Of a stretch of DNA of 53,071 nucleotides, positions 34,146 to 52,718 are shown in pieces. Position 1 is the stretch's first letter; each line of letters begins with the position of its first letter. A program made the translations under genes and the position numbers. The notes beneath the pieces were generated by a model, which saw nothing but the letters and a program-made list of their open reading frames with translations, was not told the DNA's origin and searched no databases. Source of the stretch: Eubacteriales bacterium (GTDB taxonomy: Bacteria; Bacillota; Clostridia; Lachnospirales; Lachnospiraceae); contig JAUNGM010000028.1 of NCBI GenBank assembly GCA_030524545.1, positions 1 to 53,071 on the forward strand. The letters run 5' to 3'.

Positions 34146-34160
34146 ATTTTTATATAAAAC

Positions 34161-34207: not shown

Positions 34208-34237
34208 GATATCGGAATCTAAGGAGGAAACGGGATT

Positions 34238-34819: not shown

Positions 34820-34899
34820 CCATTGTATGGAATTTGGCAAGATAAGTATGATTTAATCTATTCAGAGTTTTTATTATGAATTTTCATCTTTTAATAGAG

Positions 34900-34940
34900 A
34901 CAGGTGTCACTTATCTTTTTCATAAGCGACACCTGTTTTT
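34900..34940 (+). terminator. Terminator of the HD gene
   Basis: ACAGGTGTC pairs with GACACCTGT, extended by CTTAT/ATAAG, followed by TTTTT. The core is also the left copy of the 27-bp inverted repeat. Confidence 0.85.
34905..34931 (+). repeat. Left copy of 27-bp near-palindrome (inverted repeat)
   Basis: TGTCaCTTAT, loop CTTTTTC, ATAAGCGACA. It is the reverse complement of 35238-35264 with one mismatch. Confidence 0.9.
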
Positions 34941-35194
34941 ACTGCTTTTATAAGGCTTATATTATGATATCATCATGAATGTAGCTTGTCAAGCCGCTCA
35001 TTGTGCCTATTATCTTGCGAATTACGACATTTTTATGTGAAAAATGGGTGATTCTTCTAACAAAGTAAGTCCATGGAAAGCTGCATTAGAAGAAAAATAT
35101 CTGATAAGGGGTAAAAGTGGTCAGATCAGGAGATGGATTTAACTAGGGAAAAGAAGATTCTGACAACTATAAATAGCAGTCAACCATGGAACAG

Positions 35195-35238
35195 AAAAGG
35201 GAAAAAAGCTTAAAAATATAAGCTTTTTTCCCTTTTTT
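35195..35238 (+). terminator. Strong 17-bp hairpin with T-tract
   Basis: AAAAGGGAAAAAAGCTT pairs perfectly with AAGCTTTTTTCCCTTTT, 8-nt loop, then TT. It would end any RNA made from the 35.0-35.2 kb region. Confidence 0.85.
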
Positions 35239-35264
35239 GTCGCTTATGAAAAAGATAAGCGACA
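35238..35264 (-). repeat. Right copy of 27-bp near-palindrome (inverted repeat)
   Basis: TGTCGCTTAT, loop GAAAAAG, ATAAGCGACA; the arms pair perfectly. It is the inverted mate of 34905-34931. A further partial copy of the arm, GATAAGCGAAAGC, lies at 36650-36662 beyond the TnpB-like gene. Confidence 0.9.
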
Positions 35265-35380
35265 GCAAAAAATATAAGGTGATAAGTTAAAAAAATAAAC
35301 AAAAAGCAGATATTAGACGGTATTTCGGATTGTTCGTACCGATAAAGATATCAAACTGCGATAGTAAGGAAAAACAGAGA

Positions 35381-36586
35381 ATGGGCAGCGGACAAGGTTA
35401 CTGCATTACAACATGGAGGTTGCGGCTGAGATGCAAACATCCCCAGTGGCTTAGGGCGACGCAGGAATTATTTAATGGGATTGAACTGTTTTACTACAAT
35501 CTTCTGCTGGAGCATGAGGAACTGTGGGCACAGAACAGCCAGGGAACTCTGCGGGGGTTGGAGATTCTGAGTTTGTCCGGAAAGGAAAAAAGGGTTCCGG
35601 CTACTCCCCTTCCATGGGAAGATGTGCCTCCGTATTTTCGACGGGCAGCAGCCAATGCGGGGATTGCGGCAGCCAAAAGCCACATTTCCAGAGGAAAAAC
35701 TTCTTATGTAAATAAGGCAGAAAAGCTAAATTCAGCAGTTGTCTTTTATAAAAGAATGTACCGAGATTTTTCCGCAGAAGAAATTACACTGAAAGTTTGG
35801 ACCGGGACGCAGTGGCAATGGATGCACTGTCGGCTTTACGGAAAGGATTTTCCAAAGGATGCGGAACTGATGTCTCCGTCCGTGGTTTTTGAACGGGATT
35901 TTATCATGCTTCATGTACCTGTAAAAGAACCTACCCGCGATACTTCACCTGTGAAGCTTCGAATGAAAGAAGGCAGAAACATCTGCGGACTTCAGTTTAC
36001 CAACGGCGACGCCTTTGCTGTGGGATGTGTGATGGACAAAGATGGAAAGGAACTGGGAGTACGTTTCTTCCGTGGCGGAGAAGAGTACAGCCACTATTGC
36101 CGGTCTTTGACGGAGAAAATCGATAAGTCCCGGGAGGCTCTGGGAGATGCACCGAAAGGACACCCAAACCAGAAATACTGGATGCATCTGAAACACATGA
36201 GTGATCATTACGCACATCAGGTAAGCAGGGAAATCATCCGGTTTTGCCAGGAAAAAGATGCATCGGTAATTGCAGTTCCCAAATATAACGAGGAATACAC
36301 CCGCAAAGTAATGATCGGCTCCGGCAACTGGGGCCCTCTGCATCTGAGTATGCGGATTCGGGAATATCTGAGTTATAAAGCATGGAAGGCCGGAATCCTT
36401 GTGATTGAGGTTCACGCCAATGGGATTGGATCTGTGTGTGCTCTTTGCGGCGGTTCGATCGCAGATGCGGACAGGAAGTCTAAAGAGTTTGTCTGCAAAA
36501 ACGGACATTATGGGAATCGGTATCTGAATGCTGCCAGAAACCTGACAAAAAAATGCCGGACACAATTTGAAAAACATGTGAATTGA
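35381..36586 (+). CDS. TnpB-like protein with apparently dead RuvC nuclease
   Basis: 401 residues from ATG 35381 (AAGGAA at 35366-35371 gives 9-nt spacing; a TTG at 35330 would add 17 residues). The C-terminal half reads as TnpB/Cas12-type RuvC with a zinc-ribbon insertion. The RuvC-I strand is ICGLQFTNGDAFAVGCVMD, with Gln205 where catalytic Asp is expected. RuvC-II is SVIAVPKYNEE, with Pro300 where Glu is expected. RuvC-III is GNRYLNAARNL, with Asn379 for the first Asp of the usual D-x-D-x-NAA. The zinc part keeps Cys353, Cys356 and Cys372 but has His376 near the fourth site. The N-terminal ~190 residues fit a WED/REC-like region weakly. No TnpA is nearby. All three catalytic acids missing with an intact frame suggests a domesticated, RNA-binding but non-cutting protein. 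Confidence 0.75.
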   Translation: MGSGQGYCITTWRLRLRCKHPQWLRATQELFNGIELFYYNLLLEHEELWAQNSQGTLRGLEILSLSGKEKRVPATPLPWEDVPPYFRRAAANAGIAAAKSHISRGKTSYVNKAEKLNSAVVFYKRMYRDFSAEEITLKVWTGTQWQWMHCRLYGKDFPKDAELMSPSVVFERDFIMLHVPVKEPTRDTSPVKLRMKEGRNICGLQFTNGDAFAVGCVMDKDGKELGVRFFRGGEEYSHYCRSLTEKIDKSREALGDAPKGHPNQKYWMHLKHMSDHYAHQVSREIIRFCQEKDASVIAVPKYNEEYTRKVMIGSGNWGPLHLSMRIREYLSYKAWKAGILVIEVHANGIGSVCALCGGSIADADRKSKEFVCKNGHYGNRYLNAARNLTKKCRTQFEKHVN

Positions 36587-36904
36587 TGCAAGAAGAGACT
36601 CCAAAGGAGTTTTTTCCATAAAAGAAACCGAAGTTAAGTCTTCGGTTAAGATAAGCGAAAGCTGAAAAACAGGATCTATATACAGTAGGTTTTGTTGGGT
36701 TGAATACCGCCTGTCGTGTCTTAAACGTTCCCTGAAGGACGGAAAGAGACGGCGAAGACGCTTCGTACCGCTGCCGTTTGGCGGGTGCGGGGGAGGGTAT
36801 TTGAAGTTATTTTTTTTAAATGGCTGTCAGGGACAGCCTGCCATAAGTATATTGGCGTGGAAATGATGAGTTTAGAGAATAAAGAGTAAGGAATCGGATA
36901 TGCC
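36587..36904 (+). ncRNA. Candidate structured RNA downstream of the TnpB-like gene
   Basis: 318 nt without a gene. Successive stems: 36598-36610 with T-tract (likely terminator), 36626-36647 (AACCGAAG/CTTCGGTT), 36726-36741, 36753-36765 (CGAAG/CTTCG), 36768-36790 (CCGC/GCGG with inner GCC/GGC) and 36822-36838 (GGCTGTC/GACAGCC). TnpB and nuclease-dead relatives usually encode their guide RNA at the 3' end of the gene. Position fits; the scaffold and guide boundary cannot be assigned by eye. It could instead be the fkp leader. Confidence 0.35.
36598..36616 (+). terminator. Short terminator after the TnpB-like gene
   Basis: ACTCC, AAA loop, GGAGT, then TTTTT; a 5-bp stem, so of modest strength. 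Confidence 0.55.
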
Positions 36905-39900
36905 ATGAAATCAATGTATCGAAAGATGAAAAACCTGTTTTTAAGGCAAAGTTACCTGGATGCGTGGGAGGATTATGCAAGAAGTATACGCAAGACGAAT
37001 TTTCCGCGCTGGGATTATATCATCCTGACCTCATCCAATGAGGAACAGGCCAGATCCTTCCGGCAGCAGATCGCATACCGGTTAGAACAGGGTGTGATTC
37101 CGGAAAAAACAAAGTATCTGGTACTCCCGGATCCGGCCGGTAAACGTATCGGATCAGGCGGCGCAACCCTGAATGTGATCCGTTATCTGTCAAAGGAAGA
37201 AGGTTTCGGGTCTGATTTTCATGGAAAAAGAATCCTGGTCATCCATTCCGGAGGGGACAGTAAACGCGTACCGCAGTATTCCGTATGCGGAAAGCTCTTT
37301 TCGCCTGTGCCAAGGGAATTGCCGGATGGACGGGGATCTACCTTATTTGATGAGTTTTTGATCAGCATGGCAGGGGTACCGGCGCGTTTTAAGGAAGGGA
37401 TGCTGGTGCTTTCCGGTGATGTCTTATTGTTGTTTAATCCGCTGCAGATTGATGCCCAGTTCAGGGGAGCTGCGGCGATTTCTATGAAATCTCCTGTTGA
37501 AATAGGAGTAGACCATGGTGTGTATCTGAATGATGGGACGGACCATGTAAGGAAATTTTTACATAAACAGGAAGAAGCGACTCTGCGGGAACTTGGTGCT
37601 GTGAATGAACAGGACTGCGTAGACCTGGATACCGGGGCGGTACTGTTGGATTCAGAGCTGGTGGAGGCGCTGCTGTCTTTGATATCCAGTCCCTGTGAGG
37701 AAGCAGAAATGGGGGCAAGGGTAATTGATGAAGAAAAATATGCGGCATTTGTTAATGATAGGGCGCGTGTCAGCTTTTATGGGGATTTCCTGTATCCTCT
37801 GGCTTCTGATTCTACTTTAGAACAGTATTATAAGGAAAAGCCGGAAGGGGATTTTTGCGGCGAACTTCTGGCCTGCAGGGAAAAAATATGGGAGGTATTA
37901 AGCCCGTATCAGATGAAGCTGATCTGTCTTTCCCCTGCGGAGTTTATTCACTTTGGGACTACCAGGGAGCTGCGTGCACTTATGACTGAGGAAGTAGCAG
38001 ACTATGAATTTCTGGACTGGAAAAAGCACGTATTTACCAATGCGGCAGAATGTGCAGGAGCCCTGCATACCTGTTTGATCGGCCCGGAAGTTCGGATAGA
38101 GGAGGGCTGTTACCTCGAAAACTGCAGTATCAAGGGTACTTCCAGGATAGAAAGGGGCGCAGTTGTATCCGGGCTTGCCCTGGAGGATACGGCTGTACCT
38201 TCTGATACAGTTCTGCATGGCGTAAAGCTTCAGGAAAATGGAGGATTTCTGGTAAGAACCTACGGTGTGCTGGATAATCCTAAGAAAACGTATGAAGAAA
38301 ACGGAAGCTTTCTGAAGGGAACACTTAAGAGCTTTTTAGACAGAAATCAGTTGGTGACTGCGGATCTGTGGGCTGATAAAAGTGAATATTCCCTTTGGAA
38401 TGCGGCGCTTTATCCGGTATGCCGTTCCTGGCAGGAGGCTGTGGAATATGGTGTGCTGCTGGTAAAGATGAGCGAGGGCTTTGCATCTGCCGGGGAAATC
38501 CGGAAATGGAAAGTGCAGAAGAGGCTGAGCCTGCAGGAGTCGTTCTCTCTGGGAGATACAGAGGGATTGTTGGTTTGGAAGCAGGAACTGGAGGATGAAA
38601 TCCTGGTGGATCGTTTTCTGGAACGTATCCGGAAAGGGGAACACTATATTCCTGCTCTGAAGACTTTTGGCGAGCAGGAAATTACGGACGGCCAGTTCAG
38701 GCTTCTGATGGATCGGAAGGAGAAAGCGGATTTTTCCGAAAAGATCAGGATTCTTTATGATGTTTCCAGATCTATGAAATATAAGAAAAACAAATTTCAG
38801 GGGAAATCTTATGATGCCCTGGAGCAGGAATGCTTTGAGACAATTAAAAAAGAAATATTTGCCCGGTCATTTGTAAATCATGTTGGAGATTACCGGATTG
38901 CCTGTGACGAGGTGAAGGTAACACTTCCGGTACGTGTCAACTGGGGCGGCGGCTGGACAGATACTCCGCCGTACTGCAATGAACACGGCGGGGTGGTGCT
39001 GAATGCGGCGATCAGGCTGAAAGGGACGGAACCTATTGAAGTGGAGATCAAGAGGATACCGGAGCTTCGGATTGAGTTCGGCAGCGTGGATACGGGAGCT
39101 TATGGAAAAGCTGTGACAGCAGAAGAGATTCAGGACTGCCATAATCCGTATGACCCGTTTGCATTGCATAAGGCGGCGATCATTGCCTGCGGAATCCTGC
39201 CGCTGGAGAATAAGGCAGACCTGCAGGAGACTTTGGAAAAAATGGGAGGCGGATTCTATCTGTCAACCCGTGTCAGAGGTGTACCGAAAGGCTCCGGGCT
39301 TGGTACCAGCAGTATCCTGGCGGGCGCATGTGTAAGGGCATTTTCAAAATTCCTGGGACAGGAATGGTCAGACGGAGAAGTGTACGATATCGTGCTGAAT
39401 CTGGAGCAGATCATGAGTACAGGCGGCGGCTGGCAGGATCAGGTGGGCGGCCTGACACCGGGAATCAAATTTATTACGTCCAGGTCGGGAATCCGCCAGC
39501 ATATCCATGTGGAGCAGGTGGAAATTTCAGAAGAGACGAAGAAAGAACTGCAGGAGAGGTTTGCCCTGATCTATACAGGCCAGAGAAGGCTTGCAAGAAA
39601 TCTTCTACGGGAAGTTGTCGGAAATTATATCGGAGGCAGGCCGGAGTCCGTGAAAGCGCTGGAAGACATGCAGAAGGTTGCTGTGTTGATGAAGTTTGCG
39701 CTGGAGAGAGGAAACATTGATGAGTTTGCCGCACTGCTGAATGAACACTGGGAGATATCCAAGAGGCTGGATGCCGGGTCAACGAATACCTGTATTGACC
39801 AGATCTTTGAGGTTTGCAATGACCTGATCGATGGAAGATTTATCTCAGGCGCCGGCGGAGGCGGATTTTTGCAGGTCGTGCTGAAAAAGGGCGTGAAAAA

Positions 39901-39976
39901 AGAACAGCTTAGCAGGCGGCTGCATGAAGTGTTCCAGGATTCGGGAGTGGATGTCTGGGAGTGTGAGATTGTGTAG
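36905..39976 (+). CDS. fkp: Bifunctional L-fucokinase / GDP-L-fucose pyrophosphorylase
   Basis: 1,023 residues, close to the size of Bacteroides Fkp. The N-terminal half is a sugar-1-phosphate guanylyltransferase with LPDPAGKRIGSGGATLN (~74-90) and left-handed beta-helix-like turns (~390-440). The C-terminal ~370 residues are a GHMP kinase with VNWGGGWTDTPPYCNEHGG (~680), the ATP loop VPKGSGLGTSSILAG (~792-807) and SGAGGGGFLQVV. It turns scavenged L-fucose into fucose-1-phosphate and then GDP-fucose. A start at ATG 36914 is also possible (MYRKM). Weak SD. It heads the surface-glycan cluster. Confidence 0.95.
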   Translation: MKSMYRKMKNLFLRQSYLDAWEDYARSIRKTNFPRWDYIILTSSNEEQARSFRQQIAYRLEQGVIPEKTKYLVLPDPAGKRIGSGGATLNVIRYLSKEEGFGSDFHGKRILVIHSGGDSKRVPQYSVCGKLFSPVPRELPDGRGSTLFDEFLISMAGVPARFKEGMLVLSGDVLLLFNPLQIDAQFRGAAAISMKSPVEIGVDHGVYLNDGTDHVRKFLHKQEEATLRELGAVNEQDCVDLDTGAVLLDSELVEALLSLISSPCEEAEMGARVIDEEKYAAFVNDRARVSFYGDFLYPLASDSTLEQYYKEKPEGDFCGELLACREKIWEVLSPYQMKLICLSPAEFIHFGTTRELRALMTEEVADYEFLDWKKHVFTNAAECAGALHTCLIGPEVRIEEGCYLENCSIKGTSRIERGAVVSGLALEDTAVPSDTVLHGVKLQENGGFLVRTYGVLDNPKKTYEENGSFLKGTLKSFLDRNQLVTADLWADKSEYSLWNAALYPVCRSWQEAVEYGVLLVKMSEGFASAGEIRKWKVQKRLSLQESFSLGDTEGLLVWKQELEDEILVDRFLERIRKGEHYIPALKTFGEQEITDGQFRLLMDRKEKADFSEKIRILYDVSRSMKYKKNKFQGKSYDALEQECFETIKKEIFARSFVNHVGDYRIACDEVKVTLPVRVNWGGGWTDTPPYCNEHGGVVLNAAIRLKGTEPIEVEIKRIPELRIEFGSVDTGAYGKAVTAEEIQDCHNPYDPFALHKAAIIACGILPLENKADLQETLEKMGGGFYLSTRVRGVPKGSGLGTSSILAGACVRAFSKFLGQEWSDGEVYDIVLNLEQIMSTGGGWQDQVGGLTPGIKFITSRSGIRQHIHVEQVEISEETKKELQERFALIYTGQRRLARNLLREVVGNYIGGRPESVKALEDMQKVAVLMKFALERGNIDEFAALLNEHWEISKRLDAGSTNTCIDQIFEVCNDLIDGRFISGAGGGGFLQVVLKKGVKKEQLSRRLHEVFQDSGVDVWECEIV

Positions 39977-40094
39977 CTATACGATAATTGTTTTTTGAAC
40001 TGCATAATTAACGGTATGAATATGAAAGATGAGAGATATGTGACCTGTTCAACGAGGATTAGTGATGCGAAATTATAAAACGGAGGTATTTAAG

Positions 40095-40883
40095 GTGGGA
40101 AGGGCACCATACAATGAGAATTATGATAGAAAAATAGAGAGCACACAGATACCTACCTGCAACATTCTCGGAGTGGAGGTTGCCGCTATTGACATGGAAT
40201 GGCTATTGGATTTTACAGAAAGAAATATAAAAGACTTGGTTGGCGATTATGGATGTGTGTCAAATGTACATACAACTGTTACCGCAATGGAAAATTATAA
40301 ATATTTGGAAGTCCAAAATGGAGGAATTATAGCTATTCCGGATGGTGGACCCTTATCTACAGTTGGGCGTAAACGTGGATATAAAGGCATGAAGCGTACG
40401 ACTGGTCCTTCGTATATGGAAGAGATTTTTAAGGTAAGTGCCCAAAAGGGGTACAGGCATTATTTCTATGGAAGTACGGAAGAAACCTTAGAAAAACTCT
40501 ATAGAGTTTTGGAACATGATTATCCGGGTATTCAGATAGTAGGAATGTACAGTCCGCCGTTCCGTCCTCAGACGGAGGATGAAGATCAGATGATTGTAGA
40601 GAGAATTAATAAGACAAAGCCGGATTTTGTGTGGGTAGGTCTTGGCGCTCCAAAACAGGAAATTTGGATGGCGGCGCATCAAGGTACAGTAAATGGTTTT
40701 ATGGTTGGCGTTGGTGCAGGGTTTGATTATTTTGCAGGAAATATTAATAGGGCACCAGAATGGATGCAGAACAGAAACCTAGAATGGTTGTATAGATTAA
40801 TGCAAGATCCTAAAAGACTATTTGGTAGGTATTGGCATACTAATATAAAGTTTATTTGGAATGCGATGATTAAAGGAAAGTAA
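40095..40883 (+). CDS. WecG/TagA/CpsF family glycosyltransferase (GT26)
   Basis: 262 residues from GTG 40095, preferred because CGGAGG at 40081-40086 lies 8 nt upstream; GTG 40062 or ATG 40065 would add 10-11 residues with a poor site. Diagnostic: NILGVEVAAIDM, IPDGGPLSTVGRKRGY, RTTGPSYMEEIF, and the family signature VGLGAPKQEIWMAAH. These enzymes transfer ManNAc, ManNAcA or glucose onto a lipid-linked first sugar on the inner membrane face. It probably adds the second sugar of the repeat unit. No initiating phosphoglycosyltransferase is in the window. Confidence 0.92.
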   Translation: MGRAPYNENYDRKIESTQIPTCNILGVEVAAIDMEWLLDFTERNIKDLVGDYGCVSNVHTTVTAMENYKYLEVQNGGIIAIPDGGPLSTVGRKRGYKGMKRTTGPSYMEEIFKVSAQKGYRHYFYGSTEETLEKLYRVLEHDYPGIQIVGMYSPPFRPQTEDEDQMIVERINKTKPDFVWVGLGAPKQEIWMAAHQGTVNGFMVGVGAGFDYFAGNINRAPEWMQNRNLEWLYRLMQDPKRLFGRYWHTNIKFIWNAMIKGK

Positions 40884-40893
40884 GGTTACAGAT

Positions 40894-41487
40894 TTGAGAA
40901 AATCAGAAAAGCAGAATATATGCTACCCTATTATAGACGCACTGCTACAGAAAGTGTGCAGTATGATTAAGAAACTAAAGCAGTTAAGATGTCAGTTATT
41001 ATTAGCAAGAAATAGAAATATATCACTTGGAAGTAACAGCACATTTGGAAGAGGAACAGTATTTTATGCTCCTAACCGTATGATTATTGGAAAAAATGTT
41101 TATATTGGAAAATACTGTTCCCTAGAGGCTGATATTGAAATAGCAGATGATGTTTTGATTGGGAATAATGTTGGTTTGATCGGTAAATATGATCATGATT
41201 ATACCTGTATTGGGAAGAGCATAAAAGATAGTCCGGAAATTCGGGATTCATGTTATTCATTTAAAGGAAAGAACCAGAAAATTGTAATTGAAAACGATGT
41301 TTGGATTGGATATGGGGCAATTGTGTTTACTGGAATAACGGTACATAGAGGAGCTATTGTAGCAGCAGGAAGTGTGGTCACACATGATGTTCCACCATAT
41401 ACAATTGTGGGAGGAAACCCTGCTAAGATTTTATCTGTGAGATTCACTGATGAGCAGATAGAGGAACATGAACGCAAGTATAAGTAG
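40894..41487 (+). CDS. Hexapeptide-repeat acetyltransferase
   Basis: 197 residues with a left-handed beta-helix built of hexapeptide turns (IIGKNVYIGKYCSLEADIEI, VIENDVWIGYGAIVFTGITV, AIVAAGSVVTHDVPPYTIVG). The ending GGNPAKILSVRF is typical of sugar O-acetyltransferases such as the Maa/NodL/WcaF group. The start is TTG 40894 (AAGG 8 nt upstream) or ATG 40963, which begins MIKKLKQLR. It probably acetylates a sugar in the surface glycan using acetyl-CoA. Confidence 0.85.
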   Translation: MRKSEKQNICYPIIDALLQKVCSMIKKLKQLRCQLLLARNRNISLGSNSTFGRGTVFYAPNRMIIGKNVYIGKYCSLEADIEIADDVLIGNNVGLIGKYDHDYTCIGKSIKDSPEIRDSCYSFKGKNQKIVIENDVWIGYGAIVFTGITVHRGAIVAAGSVVTHDVPPYTIVGGNPAKILSVRFTDEQIEEHERKYK

Positions 41488-41503
41488 GAAGTGAATGAAT
41501 TAA

Positions 41504-42622
41504 ATGAAAATTGGATTACTTATAACTAGTATGGGAAACTTTGGACAAAAGGGTTTCTATAACGCACAGGAAATCGGTCTTGCGAAAGCGCTAGATTCTT
41601 TGGGTAATGAAGTGATTGTGTATAAACTGGTTTCAATAAAGGAACGAAAGCATGTTGAAAAAATAGATAGTTGTAAGCATTCGCGCATTATATTTTATCC
41701 GACGAAGTGTCTTGGAATTAATGGCATTATAGACACTAAAATATTAGATACATCTCTTGATGCGCTAATATATTTTTCTGATACGCAATTTTGTGTACCA
41801 AAGGTGTATAAATGGGCAAGAAAGAATAGTGTGAAGTTCTTTCCTTATATAGGTGTAATAGAAAGTCATAGCAACAATAAAATGAAAAAGAAGCTTGTAA
41901 ACGGGATGTTCAAGCGAAATTTGAGGGTATATAAGAAATGTCATTGCTTTACAAAGACGCCAACAGTTAAGATGCGATTAGAGGAAATTGGGGTTAAAAA
42001 CGTAACAGTAACGCCGGTGGGATTGGATTTAAGCCTTTTAGAATCTGATTTTGAGAATTATGATCTGATAGAGCTTAAGAAGAAGTATTGCTATAAATCT
42101 GAAGATAAAGTTCTTCTTTTCATTGGAAGACTTATCGAAGAAAAGCAACCAATTAGAATGATAGAGATTTTTTCGGAGTTATATCAGCAGAATACATCGC
42201 TTCGTTTACTCATAGTTGGAACTGGTGAATTAAAAGATCAAGTGACAAATCTCATTAAGAAAAAAGAACTGGAAGACTATATTCAGATGATAGATAAGAT
42301 TCCGAATAAGAATATCTGGGAATTGTACAGAATTGCAGATTGTTTTGTGAATCTTAATCAGCAAGAAATTTTCGGAATGGCAATATTAGAAGCGATGTAT
42401 TATGGATGTAAGGTTGTAGCTTGGCAAGCTCCGGGTCCAAATTTGATTATTGAAGATGGAGTATCCGGCTGGCTAGCTGCATCTAACGAAGATGTGAAAG
42501 ATTATATAAAGAATCCCCAGGATATGTCTATGGCTGCATACAATAGGATTGTGAACAAATTTACATGGGCTAGTACAGCAAAGACTATAATAAGACGGCT
42601 GCAAGAAGAAAAAAATGAATAA
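41504..42622 (+). CDS. GT-B glycosyltransferase, family 4 type
   Basis: 372 residues. The N-terminal Rossmann half is LLITSMGNFGQKGFYNAQEI. The C-terminal half carries LLFIGRLIEEKQPIRMIEIF, LLIVGTGELKDQV and the donor-binding E-x7-E motif in QEIFGMAILEAMYYGCKVVA. A cytosolic-face retaining transferase using a nucleotide sugar; the sugar cannot be read. AGGAAGTG precedes ATG 41504. Confidence 0.9.
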   Translation: MKIGLLITSMGNFGQKGFYNAQEIGLAKALDSLGNEVIVYKLVSIKERKHVEKIDSCKHSRIIFYPTKCLGINGIIDTKILDTSLDALIYFSDTQFCVPKVYKWARKNSVKFFPYIGVIESHSNNKMKKKLVNGMFKRNLRVYKKCHCFTKTPTVKMRLEEIGVKNVTVTPVGLDLSLLESDFENYDLIELKKKYCYKSEDKVLLFIGRLIEEKQPIRMIEIFSELYQQNTSLRLLIVGTGELKDQVTNLIKKKELEDYIQMIDKIPNKNIWELYRIADCFVNLNQQEIFGMAILEAMYYGCKVVAWQAPGPNLIIEDGVSGWLAASNEDVKDYIKNPQDMSMAAYNRIVNKFTWASTAKTIIRRLQEEKNE

Positions 42623-42631
42623 AATAATAAG

Positions 42632-42727
42632 ATGATTATGTCTACGATTTCGTCGAATATCACAGGAGAGAATATGAAACTTACTCCTACAAGTGTGATG
42701 ACAGAATGGGGAAAGAAACTTAAATGA
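42632..42727 (+). other. Short open frame between two glycosyltransferases
   Basis: 31 residues (MIMSTISSNITGENMKLTPT, then SVMTEWGKKLK) whose TGA overlaps the next ATG by ATGA. No ribosome site upstream. It may be a coupling leader peptide or a remnant; not recognised. Confidence 0.3.
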
Positions 42728-43836
42728 GTTTTAAGAGGAAGATGGGTAATGCCCATAATGAGAGTAGTATGAAAGTATTATTGAGCGAGAGAACATTCAA
42801 AGGACATAGAAAAACATATATGGAATGGTTATCTCATGTTCCAGGCGTGGAATTTTTTATAATAGCGCCTGAAAATTTTGGGATTGATGACAAACATTTT
42901 AGAAAATATGAATCAACTGGAGGGATAAAGACTGTAAAAGAGTATTTAGCCTGGATAAATCAAATGAAGGACATTGTAGAACAAAACAAGATAGATATAG
43001 TACATATTCTTGATGGCGATTCTATAATGCGATGGTTTGGATTTGGACTTAGTTTTTCCAAAGCAAGAAAAACGGTTATAACATATCACCATTTCTTTCC
43101 TGGTGCGGTACGAAGGTGGAGTTACAGGCTTATGTGCCACGGGAAAAAGAGAATGTGTGTTGCACATACAGTTTCTGTAGAACATTCGCTCAAAGAGTGC
43201 GGTATAAAGCAAGTTTTCCGTTGCGAATATCCGGCTTTTAGTTTTGACAGTATTGCATCACGAAATCCAGCAAAATGTAAAGAAAAATATGGAATTCCTT
43301 CTGATGTACCGACTATAGGGATTGTTGGGGGGCTGAGTATATATAAAAACATAATTCCATTTTTAGAGACAATGCAAAATTGTTGCCAGGATTTTCACAT
43401 TCTGATTTGCGGCAAAGATAGTGGTGTTGGGAAAGAGAAAATACAAACTGCAGTAAAGCCTTATGCAGATCGGGTTACTATGAAAATTGAGCATCTTAGT
43501 GACGATGAATATGAGGAGGCAATCGTAGCGAGTGATATAATCTTCTGTATTTATGGACGTGAGTTTGATGGTGCAAGTGGACCTTTGACAGATGGGGTAT
43601 GCGCGGGAAAACTAATTTTGGCTTGTAAGCATGGCTCACTAGGTGAAATTGTTTCTCAGAATCTCTTGGGAATCACCGCTGAGTGTGATGATAGTAAAGA
43701 TATGTTGTGCAAGACAGAGCTTGCATTAAGCAGAATTGTGGAGTTTAAATACGGTGAAATGGCTAATAAGTATAGAATGCATCTTAATCCAGAGCTATTT
43801 CAGGAGAGATATAAGAATATATATGAAGTTGAATAA
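42724..43836 (+). CDS. GT-B glycosyltransferase
   Basis: 370 residues from ATG 42724 (GGGGAAAG 8 nt upstream); ATG 42742 and ATG 42769 (MKVLLSERTFKGHRKTY) are alternatives, the last fitting a typical GT-B beginning. The C-terminal donor domain shows IGIVGGLSIYKNIIPFLETM, FHILICGKDSGVG and DGASGPLTDGVCAGKLILA. Substrates unknown. Part of the repeat-unit assembly set. Confidence 0.8.
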   Translation: MSFKRKMGNAHNESSMKVLLSERTFKGHRKTYMEWLSHVPGVEFFIIAPENFGIDDKHFRKYESTGGIKTVKEYLAWINQMKDIVEQNKIDIVHILDGDSIMRWFGFGLSFSKARKTVITYHHFFPGAVRRWSYRLMCHGKKRMCVAHTVSVEHSLKECGIKQVFRCEYPAFSFDSIASRNPAKCKEKYGIPSDVPTIGIVGGLSIYKNIIPFLETMQNCCQDFHILICGKDSGVGKEKIQTAVKPYADRVTMKIEHLSDDEYEEAIVASDIIFCIYGREFDGASGPLTDGVCAGKLILACKHGSLGEIVSQNLLGITAECDDSKDMLCKTELALSRIVEFKYGEMANKYRMHLNPELFQERYKNIYEVE

Positions 43837-43875
43837 GATATTATACAAGCGATTGAAAAATGGAGGATTAACGAG

Positions 43876-44772
43876 ATGAAAGGTATTATTCTTGCTGGAG
43901 GTTCTGGCACAAGATTATATCCGCTTACAAAGGTAACTTCAAAGCAGTTACTTCCTATTTACGATAAGCCAATGATCTATTATCCGATGTCTGTGCTTAT
44001 GAATGCGGGTATTCGGGATATTCTTATCATCGCCACACCACAGGATATGCCGCGTTTTCAGGATTTGCTGGGGAAGGGTAATCAGTTTGGTGTGAATCTT
44101 GCCTACGCTGAGCAGCCCTCTCCGGATGGACTAGCACAGGCGTTTATTATTGGTACTGATTTTATTGGCAATGATACGGTAGCAATGGTGCTTGGCGACA
44201 ATATTTTTGCTGGGAATGGATTGAAGAAACGCCTGAAAGCGGCTGTAGAAAATGCCGAAAGTGGCAAAGGAGCTACTGTATTCGGTTATTATGTGGATGA
44301 TCCGGAACGCTTCGGTATTGTTGAATTTGATAAGGCTGGCAAGGCAATCAGTATTGAAGAAAAACCAGAGCATCCAAAAAGCAACTACTGTGTAACTGGT
44401 CTCTATTTCTATGATAATAGGGTTGTGGAGTATGCGAAGAATTTAAAGCCATCCGCCCGTGGTGAATTGGAAATTACAGACCTAAACCGCATCTATTTAG
44501 AGAATAGTAGCTTGAATGTGGAACTGCTTGGACAAGGGTTTACATGGCTCGATACAGGTACCCACGAGAGTCTTGTGGATGCAACGAACTTTGTGAAGAC
44601 TGTAGAGCAGCATCAGCATCGTAAAGTGGCATGTTTGGAGGAAATTGCATATCTTAACGGTTGGATTTCTAAAGAGGATGTGCTGGAAGTTTATGAAGTA
44701 TTGAAAAAGAATCAATACGGCCAATATTTGAAAGATGTTCTGGATGGCAAGTATATGGATCAACTGTATTAA
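43876..44772 (+). CDS. rfbA: Glucose-1-phosphate thymidylyltransferase
   Basis: 298 residues, normal for RmlA. Makes dTDP-glucose. Seen: [61 protein letters not shown] and [35 protein letters not shown] lies before ATG 43876. First of four dTDP-rhamnose genes in order A-B-D-C, of which B is broken. Confidence 0.97.
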
Positions 44773-44789
44773 GAGGAGACAATGAGAAT

Positions 44790-45642
44790 ATGAAGAAGTA
44801 TCTGATTACTAGTTGCTGAGGGTTGAGAAATGTGATTTTGACTATATCATCAATTTGGCAGCAGAATTTCAAGTTGATCGTTCCATTGCAAATACGGAAG
44901 TATTTGTACAGTCCAAGGTTATGGGAACTGTGAATCTTCTCCAGAGAGCAAACGAGGCATGGTATGATAAGTAAACTAAAATCTGGAAGGATGGCAAGAT
45001 ATATTTGCAGGTTTCAACAGGTTATTTCATGGAAAACACTCCCCTGTCTTCTCACGGTCCGTATTCTTCTTCCAAGGCTAGTGCAGACCATTTTGTTATG
45101 GTATTTCACGATACATACGGTATGCCGATTAATATGACGAGAGATGCAGTAATAATTATGGCCCGTTTCAGTTTCCGGAAAAGTTAATTCCGCTGATGAT
45201 TAACAATGCGAAACATTACAAGCGGCTATCAATATATGGTGATGGAATTCAGATTCGTGATTGGGTGTATGTGGAGGATCGCTTCAAGGCTATTGATATG
45301 GCAACAAAGGGAGGCAAGGTTGGCGAAGTCTATAATGTCGGAGGCATGATGAGCGTTCGAACATCTTTATTGTAAAAACTATTTTGAAAAGCTTTATGAC
45401 CGTCTGCAAGATGATAGTATTTCAAAAGAATTCATCAAACATGTAGAAGATCGTCTCGGTTATGATTGTCGCTATTATATTGATCCTACCCAAATTAGGA
45501 ATGATTGAGTTGGTATCCGGAGACACCATTTGAAAAAATAATTGTGCTGACTATGGGGGATTTGGCAAATGAAGAGTTGATGAAGAATGTCACTAGCGGC
45601 AGCTACCAGAAATACTATAAAGATATGTATAAGAGTAAATGA
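44790..45642 (+). pseudogene. rfbB: dTDP-glucose 4,6-dehydratase, inactivated
   Basis: Pieces of RfbB appear in order but in shifting frames with stops and deletions. MKKYLIT at 44790 is followed soon by a stop. FDYIINLAAEFQVDRSIANT and FVQSKVMGTVNLLQRANEA follow after loss of the NAD-binding start. Then come [54 protein letters not shown] and NVGGMMSV, and a displaced tail WYPETPFEKI ending YYKDMYKSK at 45642. The intact enzyme is ~340-350 residues; here several indels and a missing nucleotide-binding loop rule out function. Confidence 0.93.
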
Positions 45643-45654
45643 GAGGGCAAATAG

Positions 45655-46569
45655 ATGAAGTTTTTTGTGACGGGTGTTGGTGGACAGTTGGGGCATGATG
45701 TGATAAAAGAACTGGCAAAGCGTGGTTATGAGAGCGTGGGTTCAGATATCCAGCCTATTTATTCTGGAGTATCAGATGATTCGGCTGTAACCATGATGCA
45801 TTATATTCAGTTGGACATTACGGATAAAAAGGCAGTAGAAAAAGTGATTACAGAAGTTAAACCGGACGCTGTCATTCATTGTGCTGCATGGACTGCAGTG
45901 GATATGGCAGAGGATGATGATAAGGTCGAAAAGGTTCGTGCAATTAATGCGGGTGGTACCCAGAACATCGCGAATGTCTGCAAGAAACTGGACTGTAAGC
46001 TGACCTATATTTCTACAGACTATGTATTTGATGGACAGGGGACTGAGCCGTGGAAGCCAGATTGTAAAGACTATAAGCCGTTGAATGTGTACGGACAGAC
46101 AAAGTTGGAAGGAGAGCTGGCAGTTAGCAATACATTGGATAAATATTTCATCGTCCGTATTGCATGGGTGTTTGGGCTAAATGGTAAGAACTTCATTAAG
46201 ACAATGATAAATGTGGGAAAGGCTTGCGATACTGTTCGTGTTGTCTATGATCAGATTGGTACGCCGACATATACATTAGATTTGGCGCGTCTACTAGTTG
46301 ACATGAATGGAACGGAGAAGTATGGCTATTATCATGTAACTAATGAGGGCGGCTATATTAGCTGGTATGATTTTGCGGTTGAGATATACAGGCAGTATGG
46401 ATTAAAGACTAACATTATTCCTGTAACAACAGAAGAATATGGTTTAAGCAAGGCAAATCGTCCTTTCAATAGCCGGATGGACAAAAGCAAACTTGTAGAG
46501 GCAGGTTTTGAATTACTTCCGACTTGGAAGGATGCTGTCAGCAGATATTTAAAGGAGGAACAATTGTAA
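45655..46569 (+). CDS. rfbD: dTDP-4-dehydrorhamnose reductase
   Basis: 304 residues, the last step of dTDP-L-rhamnose synthesis. SDR enzyme with the N-terminal FVTGVGGQLGHDVIKEL loop, CAAWTAVDMAEDD, YISTDYVFDGQG and the YGQTKLEGE catalytic Tyr-Lys. GAGGG precedes ATG 45655. The TAA overlaps the rfbC ATG by one base. Confidence 0.96.
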   Translation: MKFFVTGVGGQLGHDVIKELAKRGYESVGSDIQPIYSGVSDDSAVTMMHYIQLDITDKKAVEKVITEVKPDAVIHCAAWTAVDMAEDDDKVEKVRAINAGGTQNIANVCKKLDCKLTYISTDYVFDGQGTEPWKPDCKDYKPLNVYGQTKLEGELAVSNTLDKYFIVRIAWVFGLNGKNFIKTMINVGKACDTVRVVYDQIGTPTYTLDLARLLVDMNGTEKYGYYHVTNEGGYISWYDFAVEIYRQYGLKTNIIPVTTEEYGLSKANRPFNSRMDKSKLVEAGFELLPTWKDAVSRYLKEEQL

Positions 46570-47168
46570 TGGGGCAGATTAAAATAGAGAAAAATGTTGC
46601 TGGTATTGAAGGGCTATGCGTAATCAAACCGGCTGTTCATGGAGATAGCCGTGGCTATTTTATGGAAACATATAACAAACGAGACATGGAAGAAAATGGT
46701 ATAGATATTGTTTTTGTTCAGGATAACCAGAGCCTGAGTACAAGGGGCGTTCTTCGGGGACTTCACTTCCAGAAGCGCTTTCCACAGACAAAATTGGTTC
46801 GTGTAATCAAAGGCTCCGTATTTGATGTGGCTGTTGATTTGCGGTCTGGAAGTGAGACTTATGGAAAGTGGTATGGTATTGAATTGACGGAAGAGAATAA
46901 GAAGCAGTTTTTGATTCCAAGAGGATTTGCTCATGGTTTTCTAGTTTTGTCTGACACTGCAGAGTTCTGTTATAAATGTGATGACTTCTACCATCCGAAC
47001 GATGAGGGGGGTGTGGCATGGAATGACCCAGAAATTGGAATTGAATGGCCTAAGTTGAAAGGAATGTATAAAGGTACAGCAAGTGCTGAAGGATATAGTG
47101 TTTATGGTACATCTTTGAAGCTTAGTGATAAAGATCAGAAATGGCCGGGGATTAATGACATATTTTAA
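46569..47168 (+). CDS. rfbC: dTDP-4-dehydrorhamnose 3,5-epimerase
   Basis: 199 residues from ATG 46569, set by AAAGGAGG 10 nt upstream inside the end of rfbD. Cupin-fold epimerase with HGDSRGYFMETYNK, FVQDNQSLSTRGVLRGLHFQ, VFDVAVDLRSGSETYGKW and PRGFAHGFLVLSD. Complete and apparently functional. Confidence 0.96.
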   Translation: MGQIKIEKNVAGIEGLCVIKPAVHGDSRGYFMETYNKRDMEENGIDIVFVQDNQSLSTRGVLRGLHFQKRFPQTKLVRVIKGSVFDVAVDLRSGSETYGKWYGIELTEENKKQFLIPRGFAHGFLVLSDTAEFCYKCDDFYHPNDEGGVAWNDPEIGIEWPKLKGMYKGTASAEGYSVYGTSLKLSDKDQKWPGINDIF

Positions 47169-47184
47169 GAGAGGATACTATATT

Positions 47185-48345
47185 ATGAACTCTGAAAAAG
47201 CAAAAGTAATTGCGTTTTATTTGCCACAATATCACTGCATCCCTGAAAATGATAAGTGGTGGGGCAAAGGATTTACTGAATGGACTAATACAAAGAAAGC
47301 GGTTCCGTTGTTTGAAGGACATTATCAACCTAAAACTCCATTAAATCAGAATTATTATAATTTGTTAGATCCCAGTGTAATGAGAGAGCAAGCAAAGCTA
47401 GCAAAAGAATATAAAATTTATGGATTTTGTTATTATCATTATTGGTTTAAAAATGGAAAAAAACTTTTGGAAAAACCAATTGAAAATATGCTGAATGACA
47501 AGGAAGTAGATATTCCATTTTGTTTATCTTGGGCTAATGAAAATTGGTCTAGGCGTTGGGATGGTGGGAAAAACGAGGTTATAATGCCGCAGGATTATGG
47601 AGATAAAAAAGAGTGGAAAAAACATTTTGATTACTTATTATCTTTTTTTAAGGACGACAGATACATAAAAATTGATGGAAAGCCGTTACTTGTGATTTAT
47701 AAACCTCAGTTAATTCCGAGACTAGGAAAAATGTTGGATTATTTTAGAGAAAGAGCTTTGTGTGCGGGGTTTCCGGGTTTAGTTTTAATGAGTCAGCATC
47801 CTTCTTGGATTACAGATAAAAGATACAATAAAAAATATTTTGATTACATAATAAAGTTTGAACCTTTTTTTACCTATTCAACAATGAATAAGTGCATTAG
47901 TCTTGAGGGGAATAGTTTTAATAATAGAATTTGGAATATAATCAATGAGAATGAAGTTCTATTAAAAATTCTAGAAATAGGAAAAAAGATAAGGGATGTC
48001 TTTTCAAATATGGATAAGTCGGATGCGGGAAGTTTGACCATTAAAGATTATGATGAATATTGGAATTATATATTAGATAACAAAATAAGATCAGATTTAT
48101 TAATAAGTGGAGCTTTTACAGACTGGGATAATACAGCAAGAAAAGTAAATGGAATGATGTTTCAAGGTGCTTCTCCGGAGAAGTTCGAAAGATATCTGTC
48201 AAAGTTAGTTATAAATAATCAGAGTAAAGATAAATTGGTATTTATTAATGCATGGAATGAATGGGCTGAAGGTGCCTATCTCGAACCAGACGAGAAATTT
48301 GGTTATTCATATCTTGAAGCTGTTAAGAGAGCATTAATCAAGTGA
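47185..48345 (+). CDS. WbsX-type glycosyltransferase
   Basis: 386 residues from ATG 47185 (GAGAGG upstream; the longer frame overlaps rfbC). The N-terminal KVIAFYLPQYHCIPENDKWW, GFTEWTN, GFCYYHYWF and LSWANENWSRRWDG are the hallmarks of the WbsX/rhamnan-synthesis F-like family, followed late by INAWNEWAEGAYLEPD. These proteins occur in O-antigen and capsule clusters and are treated as glycosyltransferases. Clearly lower GC than the first half of the window. Confidence 0.9.
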   Translation: MNSEKAKVIAFYLPQYHCIPENDKWWGKGFTEWTNTKKAVPLFEGHYQPKTPLNQNYYNLLDPSVMREQAKLAKEYKIYGFCYYHYWFKNGKKLLEKPIENMLNDKEVDIPFCLSWANENWSRRWDGGKNEVIMPQDYGDKKEWKKHFDYLLSFFKDDRYIKIDGKPLLVIYKPQLIPRLGKMLDYFRERALCAGFPGLVLMSQHPSWITDKRYNKKYFDYIIKFEPFFTYSTMNKCISLEGNSFNNRIWNIINENEVLLKILEIGKKIRDVFSNMDKSDAGSLTIKDYDEYWNYILDNKIRSDLLISGAFTDWDNTARKVNGMMFQGASPEKFERYLSKLVINNQSKDKLVFINAWNEWAEGAYLEPDEKFGYSYLEAVKRALIK

Positions 48346-48367
48346 TTATAGAGACGGAGAAATGGCA

Positions 48368-49123
48368 ATGGTACTGATTATTACGGCATGTATAAAACCA
48401 CAAAACTCAATAAGTAATATTGCTATTCGTGATGAAAATATAAGATTACAGCAATATTTAGAAAGTTTAGAGTTTTATATTAATTCTGAGAGTATCACTG
48501 ATATAATATTTTGCGATAATAGTGCAACAAGTTTTGATGAGTCCTTGTTGGTGAAACTCGCAAAAAAGAAAAACAAAAATTTAGAAATACATAGATTTAA
48601 ATCCAACACGTTAGCTTGTGCAACAAGAGGAAAAAGCTATGGCGAATATGAAATAATGAAATATGTTTTTGAACATAGTTATTTGGTTAAACAACATAAT
48701 TGTTTTGTTAAAATTACTGGAAGGCTTATTGTAAAAAATTTTGATAAAATTGTTAGGAAATTAAGTGATAAAAATAATTATTTCGTTTTTTTGGGAAATC
48801 CCATAAATAGAAATGGCAAAAAGATAGATACAAGATTTTATTCTATGAAAGTGGATGATTTTAAAAAAATTGAGAAAAATTTGGGCTCTCAAATAAACGA
48901 ATTAGAAGGTTTTACTTTAGAACGGAGTTTTTTTGAAGTAATTGATAGTACGGGTACAAATTTTCGTATGCTTCCACTATATCCTCAATATGAAGGTATT
49001 TCTGGAAGCACAGGAATAGATTATTCGAATGTAAAGTTAAAGTTCGTTAAGCTTTTGTTAAAGAATGTTGCTATGAAGTTGTTTGATCTAACGCAAAGGT
49101 GGGGAATGCAAGATGAAAATTAA
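48368..49123 (+). CDS. Putative glycosyltransferase of unknown family
   Basis: 251 residues from ATG 48368, favoured over ATG 48362 because GGAG at 48356-48359 gives 8-nt spacing. Starts MVLIITACIKP, then FCDNSATSFDE, TRGKSYGEYEIMKYVFEHS and HNCFVKITGRLIV: a GT-A-like flow with a possible Asp-based metal site, as in small capsule transferases. I do not recognise a named family with certainty. Its stop overlaps the polymerase gene by 11 nt. AT-rich. Confidence 0.6.
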   Translation: MVLIITACIKPQNSISNIAIRDENIRLQQYLESLEFYINSESITDIIFCDNSATSFDESLLVKLAKKKNKNLEIHRFKSNTLACATRGKSYGEYEIMKYVFEHSYLVKQHNCFVKITGRLIVKNFDKIVRKLSDKNNYFVFLGNPINRNGKKIDTRFYSMKVDDFKKIEKNLGSQINELEGFTLERSFFEVIDSTGTNFRMLPLYPQYEGISGSTGIDYSNVKLKFVKLLLKNVAMKLFDLTQRWGMQDEN

Positions 49124-50339
49124 AATACATAAATACTGCCCACCAGTAATAATTCTTTTTATAGTATTATACCCAAAAGTATTAGACTATATTCCAGCAT
49201 GCAACTCTCTAATACATATAATATATATTTTGCAAATTGTATTTGCGTTTTTTGTTTTGGGTTCAAGAATAGTCAGGATATTTATAGAGAAAAGAATGTT
49301 GGATAACAGAGAAAGATGTTTTGTTACTATTCTCATTTTTATTAATCTTGGATTTTTTCTGTCAGATTTCTATGTAGGTGTATTTAGTCAAACCTTTACG
49401 ATTAATATAAGGCGAACGGCACTTATTTTAGCACTATATTATTATATTGAACAGGCGAATGCTGATAAAAGATATAATATTATAAAAAGTAGTTATTATT
49501 ATTTGACAGCATTAATGTTTTTTAATTTAGTGCTAAAGGTGATGTTTCCAAAAGGTATGGCAGGTATGTTTATGTATACAACCGAGGGATATCTAGCTTG
49601 GACTGATACTATCGGTTTTTTGGATGCAGATAATAGAGTATCTCTATTTGCTTTTCTGTATTTCTTCATAGCACACATATATATAGAATTATATTGTGAT
49701 GGTATACATGCGTACAAAAAAAATAACTATATAATTACATATATATTAGTAATCGTCAATATACTTTTGTCAAAAAGCGGCAGTGGTGTGTTAGCGATGT
49801 TGGTATTACTATTACTTGTTTTTTTTATAAAGAGTAAAAAAAGTATAGGAAATATAGTTTCTTGGAAAGGTTTAACTATTATTTCAATTGTTATCGCTTT
49901 TTTTGTAACAGGTAAGATGACAAATGTTGTTTCATGGCTTGGATCTCTTATGGGAAAAGGAGTATCATTATCAGGCAGAACTGCGATATGGGCCATGGCC
50001 GTTGAAAAAATAATAAACTCTCCGATTATTGGATATGGAACATTGGAGGAAGGGGCTTTTTTTAATATTGGATATTATACTTGGTATGCGCATGACCAAT
50101 ACTTAGATTTTTGGCTACAAGGAGGAATCCTTACATTAATATCGTTTATAATATTGATTGGATATACACATTCAAGGATAAAAAGAGTAGCTATAAAGAA
50201 TTACTACATAGTATATGTTGCATCTTTGGTTGCTTTTCTAGCATTAGGGGTTGTTGAACATTTTGTTATTCGAAATTATTATCAATTCTGGTGTTTTATT
50301 TGTTTCGCATTTGTAATGAGTAAGGAGAAAGTGAAATGA
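49113..50339 (+). CDS. wzy: O-antigen/capsule polymerase (Wzy-like)
   Basis: 408 residues with roughly ten membrane helices and a large outer loop. The segment LSGRTAIWAMAVEKIINSPI, then GYGTLEEGAFF and AHDQYLDFWLQGG, is the recurring polymerase/ligase pattern (R in the loop, H before the next helix). Joins lipid-linked repeat units on the outer membrane face. Overlaps the preceding gene by 11 nt and the flippase by 4 nt, which implies a tight operon. Confidence 0.85.
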   Translation: MKIKIHKYCPPVIILFIVLYPKVLDYIPACNSLIHIIYILQIVFAFFVLGSRIVRIFIEKRMLDNRERCFVTILIFINLGFFLSDFYVGVFSQTFTINIRRTALILALYYYIEQANADKRYNIIKSSYYYLTALMFFNLVLKVMFPKGMAGMFMYTTEGYLAWTDTIGFLDADNRVSLFAFLYFFIAHIYIELYCDGIHAYKKNNYIITYILVIVNILLSKSGSGVLAMLVLLLLVFFIKSKKSIGNIVSWKGLTIISIVIAFFVTGKMTNVVSWLGSLMGKGVSLSGRTAIWAMAVEKIINSPIIGYGTLEEGAFFNIGYYTWYAHDQYLDFWLQGGILTLISFIILIGYTHSRIKRVAIKNYYIVYVASLVAFLALGVVEHFVIRNYYQFWCFICFAFVMSKEKVK

Positions 50340-51787: not shown

Positions 51788-51794
51788 TTATAGA

Positions 51795-52718
51795 ATGTTT
51801 GTTGTTTGTTTTGGAGATGGTTTAGGGAATCAAATGTTTCAATATGCATTTTATAAAGCATTAAAAGTAGCTTATCCAAATAATAATATAAAGATGGATA
51901 TTTTCCATATATATGGAGGGCATATACATAATGGATTTGAGCTAAACAGTGTTTTTGGAATACCAATTGACGAGTGTGACCATAGAACTGCATTATTATT
52001 GTCAGATTATTGCCCTTACCAGGAAAAGAGATACTGGTTCATGAATAAAATGTATGGTATAAGACGATATTTGTTTGGTTTGAAAGAAAGCTTTATTACT
52101 CAGGATGATCCAACTTGCTATTACGATGAAGTGTTTCATTTATCTGAACTGAAATCTTATATTTTAAAGGGAAATTGGGTAAATGAAAAGTACTTTGCAA
52201 ATTGTAGAGAGGAATTGATAAAGGATTTTACTTTCCCTGAAATTGTATATGGCGCTAATAAGCATTATAAAGAAGAAATACTTAAATCTAATTCTATATC
52301 AGTTCATATAAGGAAAGGGGATTATATCAATTCGGGAATGATTAATTTACCAGTTGAATATTATAAGCAGGCAAAAAAAATAATTGAAGAGAAAGTAAGT
52401 ACTCCTAAATATTTTATTTTTACTGATGATAAACATGCTATTTCAGAATATTTAGAGGTATTCAAAGAATACATAATTGTTGAGGGGAATTCTGGGAATC
52501 AGAGCTACAGAGATATGCAATTAATGAGTTTGTGTAAGCATAATATTATTCCAAATAGTACATTTAGCTTTTGGGGGGCATATCTCAATAGCAATCCAAA
52601 TAAAATTGTAATTGCCCCAAACAAGTCAAAACTTGATTTTAGGCATCCTTTTGCATTAAAAGAATGGACTACAATCCCTTTTAATGGAAAAAATGATAGT
52701 AAGTATTTTGAGAGATAA
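51795..52718 (+). CDS. Alpha-1,2-fucosyltransferase (GT11)
   Basis: 307 residues, the usual GT11 size. Seen: the N-terminal GDGLGNQMFQYAFYKAL, the GDP-fucose-binding HIRKGDY at 171-177 (VHIRKGDYINSG), FTDDKHAISEYL, and NSTFSFWGAYLN near the end. It moves L-fucose from GDP-fucose onto a galactose-type acceptor at the 2-OH, as in bacterial H-antigen-like glycans. It uses the product of gmd-fcl and of fkp, both in this window. The SD is poor (AAAGGAG sits inside the end of wzx). AT-rich. Confidence 0.94.
   Translation: MFVVCFGDGLGNQMFQYAFYKALKVAYPNNNIKMDIFHIYGGHIHNGFELNSVFGIPIDECDHRTALLLSDYCPYQEKRYWFMNKMYGIRRYLFGLKESFITQDDPTCYYDEVFHLSELKSYILKGNWVNEKYFANCREELIKDFTFPEIVYGANKHYKEEILKSNSISVHIRKGDYINSGMINLPVEYYKQAKKIIEEKVSTPKYFIFTDDKHAISEYLEVFKEYIIVEGNSGNQSYRDMQLMSLCKHNIIPNSTFSFWGAYLNSNPNKIVIAPNKSKLDFRHPFALKEWTTIPFNGKNDSKYFER

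Follow-up and report, generated by a model that had tools for sequence, protein, structure and literature searches.

The gene at positions 35381..36586 (+ strand) of the window, the whole 53,071-nt stretch of Lachnospiraceae DNA that was analyzed (contig JAUNGM010000028.1), very probably encodes a TldR-type RNA-guided repressor that is phase-variably expressed and silences surface-glycan operons. Sequence comparison points to lost catalysis, selection, RNA structure, matching TAM sites, a glycan context and an invertible promoter. In the mechanism that we propose, the tldR product would descend from TnpB, no longer able to cut DNA and still supplied with an omega-RNA-like guide encoded just downstream. 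The protein would bind this RNA, and the complex would recognize, in capsular or exopolysaccharide operon leaders, a TAM (TTAGAT, TTGGAT or GTGAT) followed by a short A/T-rich operator, pair with the template strand there and stop the polymerase, which would block transcription. The tldR gene would itself head a glycan operon whose promoter is flipped ON or OFF by recombination, so that with one operon ON the silencer of operator-bearing operons would also be made, and the outcome may be the phase-variable exchange of one surface glycan for another. A sequence-only reading of this DNA had suggested a nuclease-dead regulator and a new branch of RNA-guided regulators. The loss of the nuclease stands, and a new branch of RNA-guided regulators gains support from a covarying RNA scaffold and guide-matched TAM sites before glycan genes; the RNA itself and its sites had been overlooked, as had the invertible promoter and how widely the family occurs.

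The dead TnpB-like gene and its family

The frame is open throughout its 401 codons without a stop, as had been stated, and the TnpB/Cas12 framework that was claimed for the C-terminal half was recovered there. Matches of the 401-aa protein to TnpB/Cas12f families are confined to its C-terminal part, with Cas12f1-like_TNB (PF07282) of Pfam at E=4e-10, over the family cut-off, guided_TnpB of NCBIfam at E=6e-15, under the family cut-off, and profile matches to solved TnpB/Cas12f chains at 2e-11 at best; hhalign of the window-protein family against nine TnpB-like proteins gave 97.8%. The reference for the catalytic positions was nine TnpB-like proteins from related genomes, with D/E/D in 9/9. In the profile-profile alignment with these, Gln205 stands in place of the first RuvC Asp, Pro300 in place of the Glu and Tyr381 in place of the last Asp. 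The loss of all three acids, with Gln205 and Pro300 as two of the replacements, had thus been read correctly, and the error lay in the third position, which had been given as Asn379. This residue was rejected as the third catalytic position, given that it aligns with the noncatalytic first D of 'DRD', two residues before Tyr381. Judged by the D/E/D triad, the protein would not belong with the active TnpB proteins. Cys353, Cys356, Cys372 and His376 are conserved in the family alignment.

The window's own genome (4.34 Mb) holds a second tldR copy at 44% identity. In the genus survey, 17 of 64 genomes matched and 15 were counted as tldR-positive, with G061 and G062 left out because their match was weak and merely TnpB-like; two to four copies are present in 11 of the 15, and in G036 and G063 tldR was seen as a fragment alone. 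A contig database scan returned four relatives, the closest named one a Blautia MAG and the other three Lachnospiraceae records. A profile search of the bacterial family found tldR in 9 of 397 sampled genomes, seven of the nine in other genera, and the class-wide search (391 genomes) found one genome of another family, G832, with four copies on one contig. The tldR family is diverse and occurs, besides Blautia, in seven further sampled genera of its bacterial family and in a single genome from another one. The phage collection held no match to the window protein, and the plasmid collection gave one weak match alone, to an ordinary TnpB. Among the 25 most common neighbor families listed, there is no transposase. 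A multicopy TnpB-like group in G062 (L017, L029) has kept D/E/D, has lost the zinc cysteines and shows about 30% identity with the dead family across 200 to 300 aa; it is perhaps close to the dead family's ancestor. One locus of G029 (L104, G029:C109:10000-29500) holds two dead-TnpB copies about 2.6 kb apart, the second with an aberrant tail, AAGTATTGG, and without the conserved Pro300.

We considered that these genes could be decaying TnpB relics, functionless and carried along by neighboring genes, given that three copies are damaged: G161:C28 has an in-frame stop, G056:C36 has its frame split in two and G000:C67 (L103) is without the zinc part. However, 43 copies are full length, and across the 49 family ORFs or pieces (46 loci) Asp205, Glu300 and Asp381 are found in none, with alignment gaps at these positions in 4, 2 and 3 of the 49 rows, respectively. 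Residue 300 is Pro in 45 of the 47 rows having a residue there. The dN/dS ratio was 0.061 to 0.121 across 11 pairs (about 0.1), rough values with dS > 1 in six of the 11, which indicate that the tldR family is under purifying selection and on which decay of the whole family was rejected; the covarying RNA described below likewise argues against relics. We regard the relic reading as extremely improbable for the family; it can hold for single copies. Selected loss of catalysis, as opposed to random decay, had been the earlier suggestion, along with a check of homologues for preserved frame and dN/dS below 1, and both are borne out by the lack of D/E/D in all 43 full-length members and by the ratios of the 11 pairs. 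The stops and frameshifts in homologues that had been named as a mark of decay would apply to single copies only.

The downstream RNA and the glycan genes beyond it

The gene had been described as stand-alone, which did not hold, as an omega-RNA-like RNA lies directly 3' of it. The scaffold (36655..36803, + strand) is made up of a hairpin, a GGY/GCC stem and a pseudoknot, with covariation in 38 sequences; the pseudoknot strands are GAATAC on the 5' side (36702..36707, +) and GTATTT on the 3' side (36797..36802, +). An RNA was located downstream of tldR by script in 44 of 47 copies; the script missed it at L098, L100 and L107, and the RNAs of L098 and L100 are visible by eye. In the alignment of 38 of the 44 sequences (L088, L091, L102, L114, L116 and L118 excluded), the hairpin, the invariant GGY/GCC stem and the pseudoknot comprise 24 pairs with 90.5% of cells paired, compared to 37 to 49% in slid-partner controls. 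Double changes occur in 21 of the 24 pairs and in 6/6 pairs of the pseudoknot, where 99.6% of cells are paired. A covariance model, with the 50 best candidates scored per genome, found 33 RNA copies in 14 of 64 genomes. All 33 adjoin a tldR, and an RNA standing apart from the gene was rejected on these 50 candidates per genome. The RNA model R1 did not recognize the RNAs of G832, in which the pseudoknot was read by eye, and Rfam gave no match to the downstream RNA even at E=1.

In TnpB and Cas12f systems, the guide lies directly 3' of the pseudoknot of a pseudoknotted RNA, at the 3' end of that RNA. The putative guide of the window, AAGTTATTTTTTTTAAATGG (36804..36823, +), starts one base past the pseudoknot, with a provisional 3' end. 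The tail one base past the pseudoknot varies: the main clade has AAGTTAT, a distant clade GAG(A/G/T)TAT and the genome G832 GAGTTTT. At L103 (G000:C67) the seed is changed to AAGTAAT and the gene 3' of the RNA resembles rmlA; this copy may be decaying or re-addressed. A perfect 7-bp hairpin, GGCTGTC-agg-GACAGCC, was seen by eye at 36822-36838, 18 nt past the guide start, and could indicate where the guide RNA is processed or where its 3' end lies.

The first gene past the RNA is fkp (36905..39976, +), encoding a bifunctional fucokinase/fucose-1-phosphate guanylyltransferase (NCBIfam match below cut-off), an annotation that confirms the reported position of tldR directly upstream of fkp. Further glycan genes run in the direction of fkp at 40062..52718 (+); their Pfam types are WecG-type transferase, hexapeptide transferase, glycosyltransferase, RmlA-type nucleotidyltransferase, RmlD, WbsX, Wzy_C, Wzx-type flippase and GT11, and two genes are without a Pfam match. 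Across the family loci, the leading families among 116 downstream proteins (116 of 118 scanned, with duplicates, tldR pieces and doubtful ORFs left out) are sugar-nucleotide epimerases/dehydratases and glycosyltransferases. Elsewhere in the window, the gene at 6775-12645 encodes a protein of 1957 aa that carries Big_2 (bacterial Ig-like) and fn3 domains. Its antisense ORFs return about every 1026 bases, which suggests long internal repeats that TRF, with a period limit of 500, did not call.

Candidate operators and their co-change with the guide

The guide tail of the main clade reappears in DNA behind GAT, as a TTAGAT-like TAM followed by AAGTTATAAATA; the TAM consensus is TTAGAT, with variants TTGGAT and GTGAT. 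Candidate operators lie in the leaders of dead-TnpB genes, downstream of the RNA (L091, L103) and in glycan operons without tldR. In the window, the tldR leader carries a putative operator, AAGTTAAAAAAATAAA (35284..35299, +), which agrees with the locus's own guide in its first 6 nt, behind a TAM-like GGTGAT (35278..35283, +). Leader sites were sense in 17 cases and antisense in 0, and a uniformly sense orientation fits a roadblock. The sequence GATAAGTTATWWWWWW was counted at 38 sites in the 64 genus genomes versus 7 for reversed controls. TTAGAT-type sites outside tldR loci were present in 7/15 tldR-positive versus 2/49 tldR-negative genomes (P = 3e-4), a count made by eye under a TTAGAT restriction chosen after the sites were seen; without this restriction, the association was 9/15 versus 10/49 (P = 0.005). 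Family-wide, operator sites occurred in 4/9 tldR-positive versus 3/388 tldR-negative genomes (P = 4e-6). Five of the six sites in the positive genomes precede glycan genes and the sixth a protein without assignment, whereas none of the three in the negative genomes does (subtilase, amidase, no ORF).

In G009, G015, G016 and G017, the operator is flanked by a sugar transferase and the gene that follows it; in G013 it precedes fkp, and in both G030 and G036 it precedes a sugar transferase. Pfam searches covered one such pair of flanking genes (L213) and the genes of G013, G015 and G030, and the others were named by likeness. The guide of L081 in G016 matches the G016 operator over its first 10 nt, with a single mismatch (nt 11) within the first 17. 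No tldR was detected in G013 and G030, where operators precede glycan genes (assemblies 83% and 92% complete); the G013 site is L218, and the G030 site, L219, is accompanied by an invertible-promoter-like repeat. Sites in G006 and G008 adjoin no clear glycan gene, and some in G009, G016 and G017 have another TAM and precede a glmM-like gene or a gene without assignment. An intergenic CGGAT followed by AAGTTATATGTG (L036, G000:C2:64648-64656, minus strand) is a possible further site, although no 80-codon ORF begins within 300 nt of it.

Many guides share merely 7 nt with any operator found, and those of the G060 trio have 4 nt in common with their own operators; the A/T-richness of tails and leaders inflates such match counts. 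In the window's own genome, the guide matches its own site over just 6 nt and the C67 site over 7 nt, and the C67 guide matches each of the two over 4 nt. A 6-nt seed suffices for a published TldR (PMC13418256), which would bring both the C67 operon (7 nt) and the window's tldR leader (6 nt) within reach of the window's complex.

For the distant clade with the GAG(A/G/T)TAT tail, this tail was searched behind GAT in the genomes of that clade, with the pattern predicted before the search. The predicted operator GAGTTATA turned up upstream of glycan genes, preceded by the TAM of the main clade. GAGnTAT had been predicted in this way for G079 and G305; sites versus controls numbered 16 versus 5 in G079, 9 versus 6 in G305, 6 versus 0 in G237 and 2 versus 4 in G364, for which the searched pattern was therefore no prediction, its tail being AAGTTATT. 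Loci were available for 30 of the 33 sites, which were inspected, and 22 of the 30 lie inside ORFs, including all of G237 (six) and G364. Sites L240, L251 and L252 each precede a glycosyltransferase, L243 a gene of mannose-1-phosphate guanylyltransferase type, L230 a protein without assignment and L231 (G305, intergenic, GAGATATTT seed) an aminotransferase-like gene that is no glycan gene; L250 and L253 are at the end of a dead-TnpB gene or fragment. Three guides seen in G079 mismatch the free-standing G079 operators at nt 4.

For G832, the guide GAGTTTTA was written down ahead of the genome search, which returned one exact match, TTTAGAT followed by GAGTTTTAATA. The start codon of a DegT aminotransferase lies 33 nt downstream, and the site heads at least 13 co-directional ORFs, this aminotransferase and at least 12 more, several of which resemble glycosyltransferases and other glycan genes (Pfam run on the first ORF alone). 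Exact matches expected by chance were 0.62, so the weight of this one lies in its position and not in its number. Of 15 one-mismatch matches, all but one (L282) are within ORFs. In two G832 copies (L265-L268), a TAM-like ATAGAT stands at the tldR stop codon, followed by sequence near, and not equal to, the copy's own guide (GAGTAATG, GAATTATA), much like a former own site that has since drifted. By these comparisons, guide and site differ in concert across three clades.

Factors of the LoaP, RfaH and UpxY types help polymerase through long operons, and the tldR gene and its RNA stand ahead of the structural genes, the position of capsule-operon antiterminators. We considered that the protein could be such an antiterminator acting in cis, which would bind its own leader RNA and carry polymerase through the long glycan operon, the AAGTTAT match being incidental. 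This explanation appears unlikely, given that it accounts neither for the TAM-flanked tail copies in operons without the gene nor for the change of operators along with the tail in three clades, and that the protein is TnpB-like and not NusG-like: Cas12f1-like_TNB was the sole Pfam match up to E=1, with no NusG-like domain. Our preferred reading is still a TldR-type repressor guided by its RNA.

The putative invertible promoter, possible self-sparing and known systems

Two 27-nt inverted repeats upstream of tldR (34905..34931 and 35238..35264), 96% complementary with 306 nt between the arms, bound a putative invertible promoter segment. Inside them, a sigma-A-like promoter, TTGACA-17-TATCAT (34964..34992, - strand), points away from tldR, the OFF orientation, in this assembly. 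A near-perfect 22-bp hairpin with T/A-rich arms (inverted repeat I2, 35191..35240, 95% complementary) adjoins the right repeat, and promoter and terminator-like hairpin stand at opposite ends of the segment; the hairpin could insulate tldR in the OFF orientation. Around it (35187-35270), Rfam gave sub-threshold miRNA- and snoRNA-like matches only. At L104 (G029), an 81%-identical relative, the same promoter type is directed toward tldR. An inverted-repeat pair was found upstream in 29/44 loci by script, with promoter-like sequences in either orientation, a count made without a shuffled control. Between two close species (L078 versus L116), a 1447-bp segment right before tldR is inverted between collinear flanks and includes a tyrosine recombinase gene. 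Phage_integrase was the commonest Pfam family upstream (9/70 proteins; 70 of 75 scanned, with duplicates, tldR pieces and doubtful ORFs left out).

We further considered an RNA-addressed mutual exclusion, in which the guides of phase-variable loci would silence other loci, their own mismatched operator would escape and the code at nt 4 to 10 would diverge as an identity tag. The idea is attractive and weakly supported, and we put it at somewhat under an even chance. Leading guide-operator matches of own pairs span 3 to 9 nt (mean 5.70, n = 23), compared to means of 6.29 for guides against the operators of other tldR loci (n = 49) and 6.55 against free-standing operators (n = 44). Own pairs thus match slightly worse than other pairs (by permutation, P = 0.038 for the mean, and P = 0.004 for a post hoc count of leading matches of 8 or more). 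From the own-pair count, L095 -331 and L097 RNAend+38 (taken as spurious) and L099 (second seed base differs) were dropped; the first copy of L104, the gene-end site of L095, the G079 C117 copy and L100 (TAM = GAA) were added by hand; and genomes without both guide and operator (G013, G030, G036, G020, G063 and others) were excluded. Few contrasts favor mutual exclusion: L082 and L084, which have an own site, depart from their sisters at nt 8, and in G060 the operators changed instead of the guides. In 14 of the 23 own pairs, the first 6 or more nt match, and these would still be bound if the seed is 6 nt. The same 14 loci would be enough for pure autoregulation with the published 6-nt seed, each protein-RNA pair limiting its own operon only, via an operator in its own leader or after the RNA. 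We consider this improbable, given the slightly worse fit of own sites to own guides than to others, the lack of an own site by script in about half of the 44 copies and the presence of operators in operons without tldR. Control of other glycan operons by the guided repressor is the reading that we retain.

The C-terminal RuvC/zinc region and the pseudoknotted RNA with its guide at the 3' end are shared with IS200/IS605 TnpB and Cas12f. Unlike in these, the catalytic acids are missing here, and no CRISPR-like repeat array was found in 34100-37000. UpxY and UpxZ are the first genes of phase-variable Bacteroides capsule operons with invertible promoters and inhibit other loci in trans; to our knowledge, they use no guide RNA. 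The phase-variable capsule operon with its first gene behind an invertible promoter is a likeness, whereas the protein families are unrelated. The closest likeness is to TldR: a nuclease-dead TnpB, an adjacent guide RNA, a TAM-flanked short target and a link to a surface-structure gene. We would assign the family there by its TnpB superfamily membership, RuvC loss in a conserved intact gene, adjacent guide RNA and guide-matched TAM site (just 6 to 7 nt in the window's own genome), an assignment made without direct comparison to published TldR sequences. In contrast to the fliC TldRs, the regulon would be capsule/EPS operons, not flagellin; further differences from TldRs are one operator common to several operons, upstream recombinases of tyrosine type and not Hin, and a window protein with no counterpart in the phage collection. 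An oppF-associated TldR group is also known. The nearest precedent is the csrA-linked TldRs of Oscillibacter and relatives, for which PMC13418256 describes upstream inversions; those loci share with ours DNA inversions and predicted multilocus cross-targeting. In the searchable literature, no glycan-linked TldR was among the matches listed; the 2024 founding TldR paper and a 2023 PNAS survey lie beyond that search, and a prior mention is possible.

If this reading is true, natural RNA-guided transcription control would extend from flagellin to the capsule/EPS loci of gut Firmicutes, and RNA-guided control would be coupled to DNA inversion. The natural set of matched guide-operator pairs may serve to gauge how few base pairs a TldR needs. 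The proposal would also offer a testable mechanism for exchanging the surface glycans seen by phages and host immunity.
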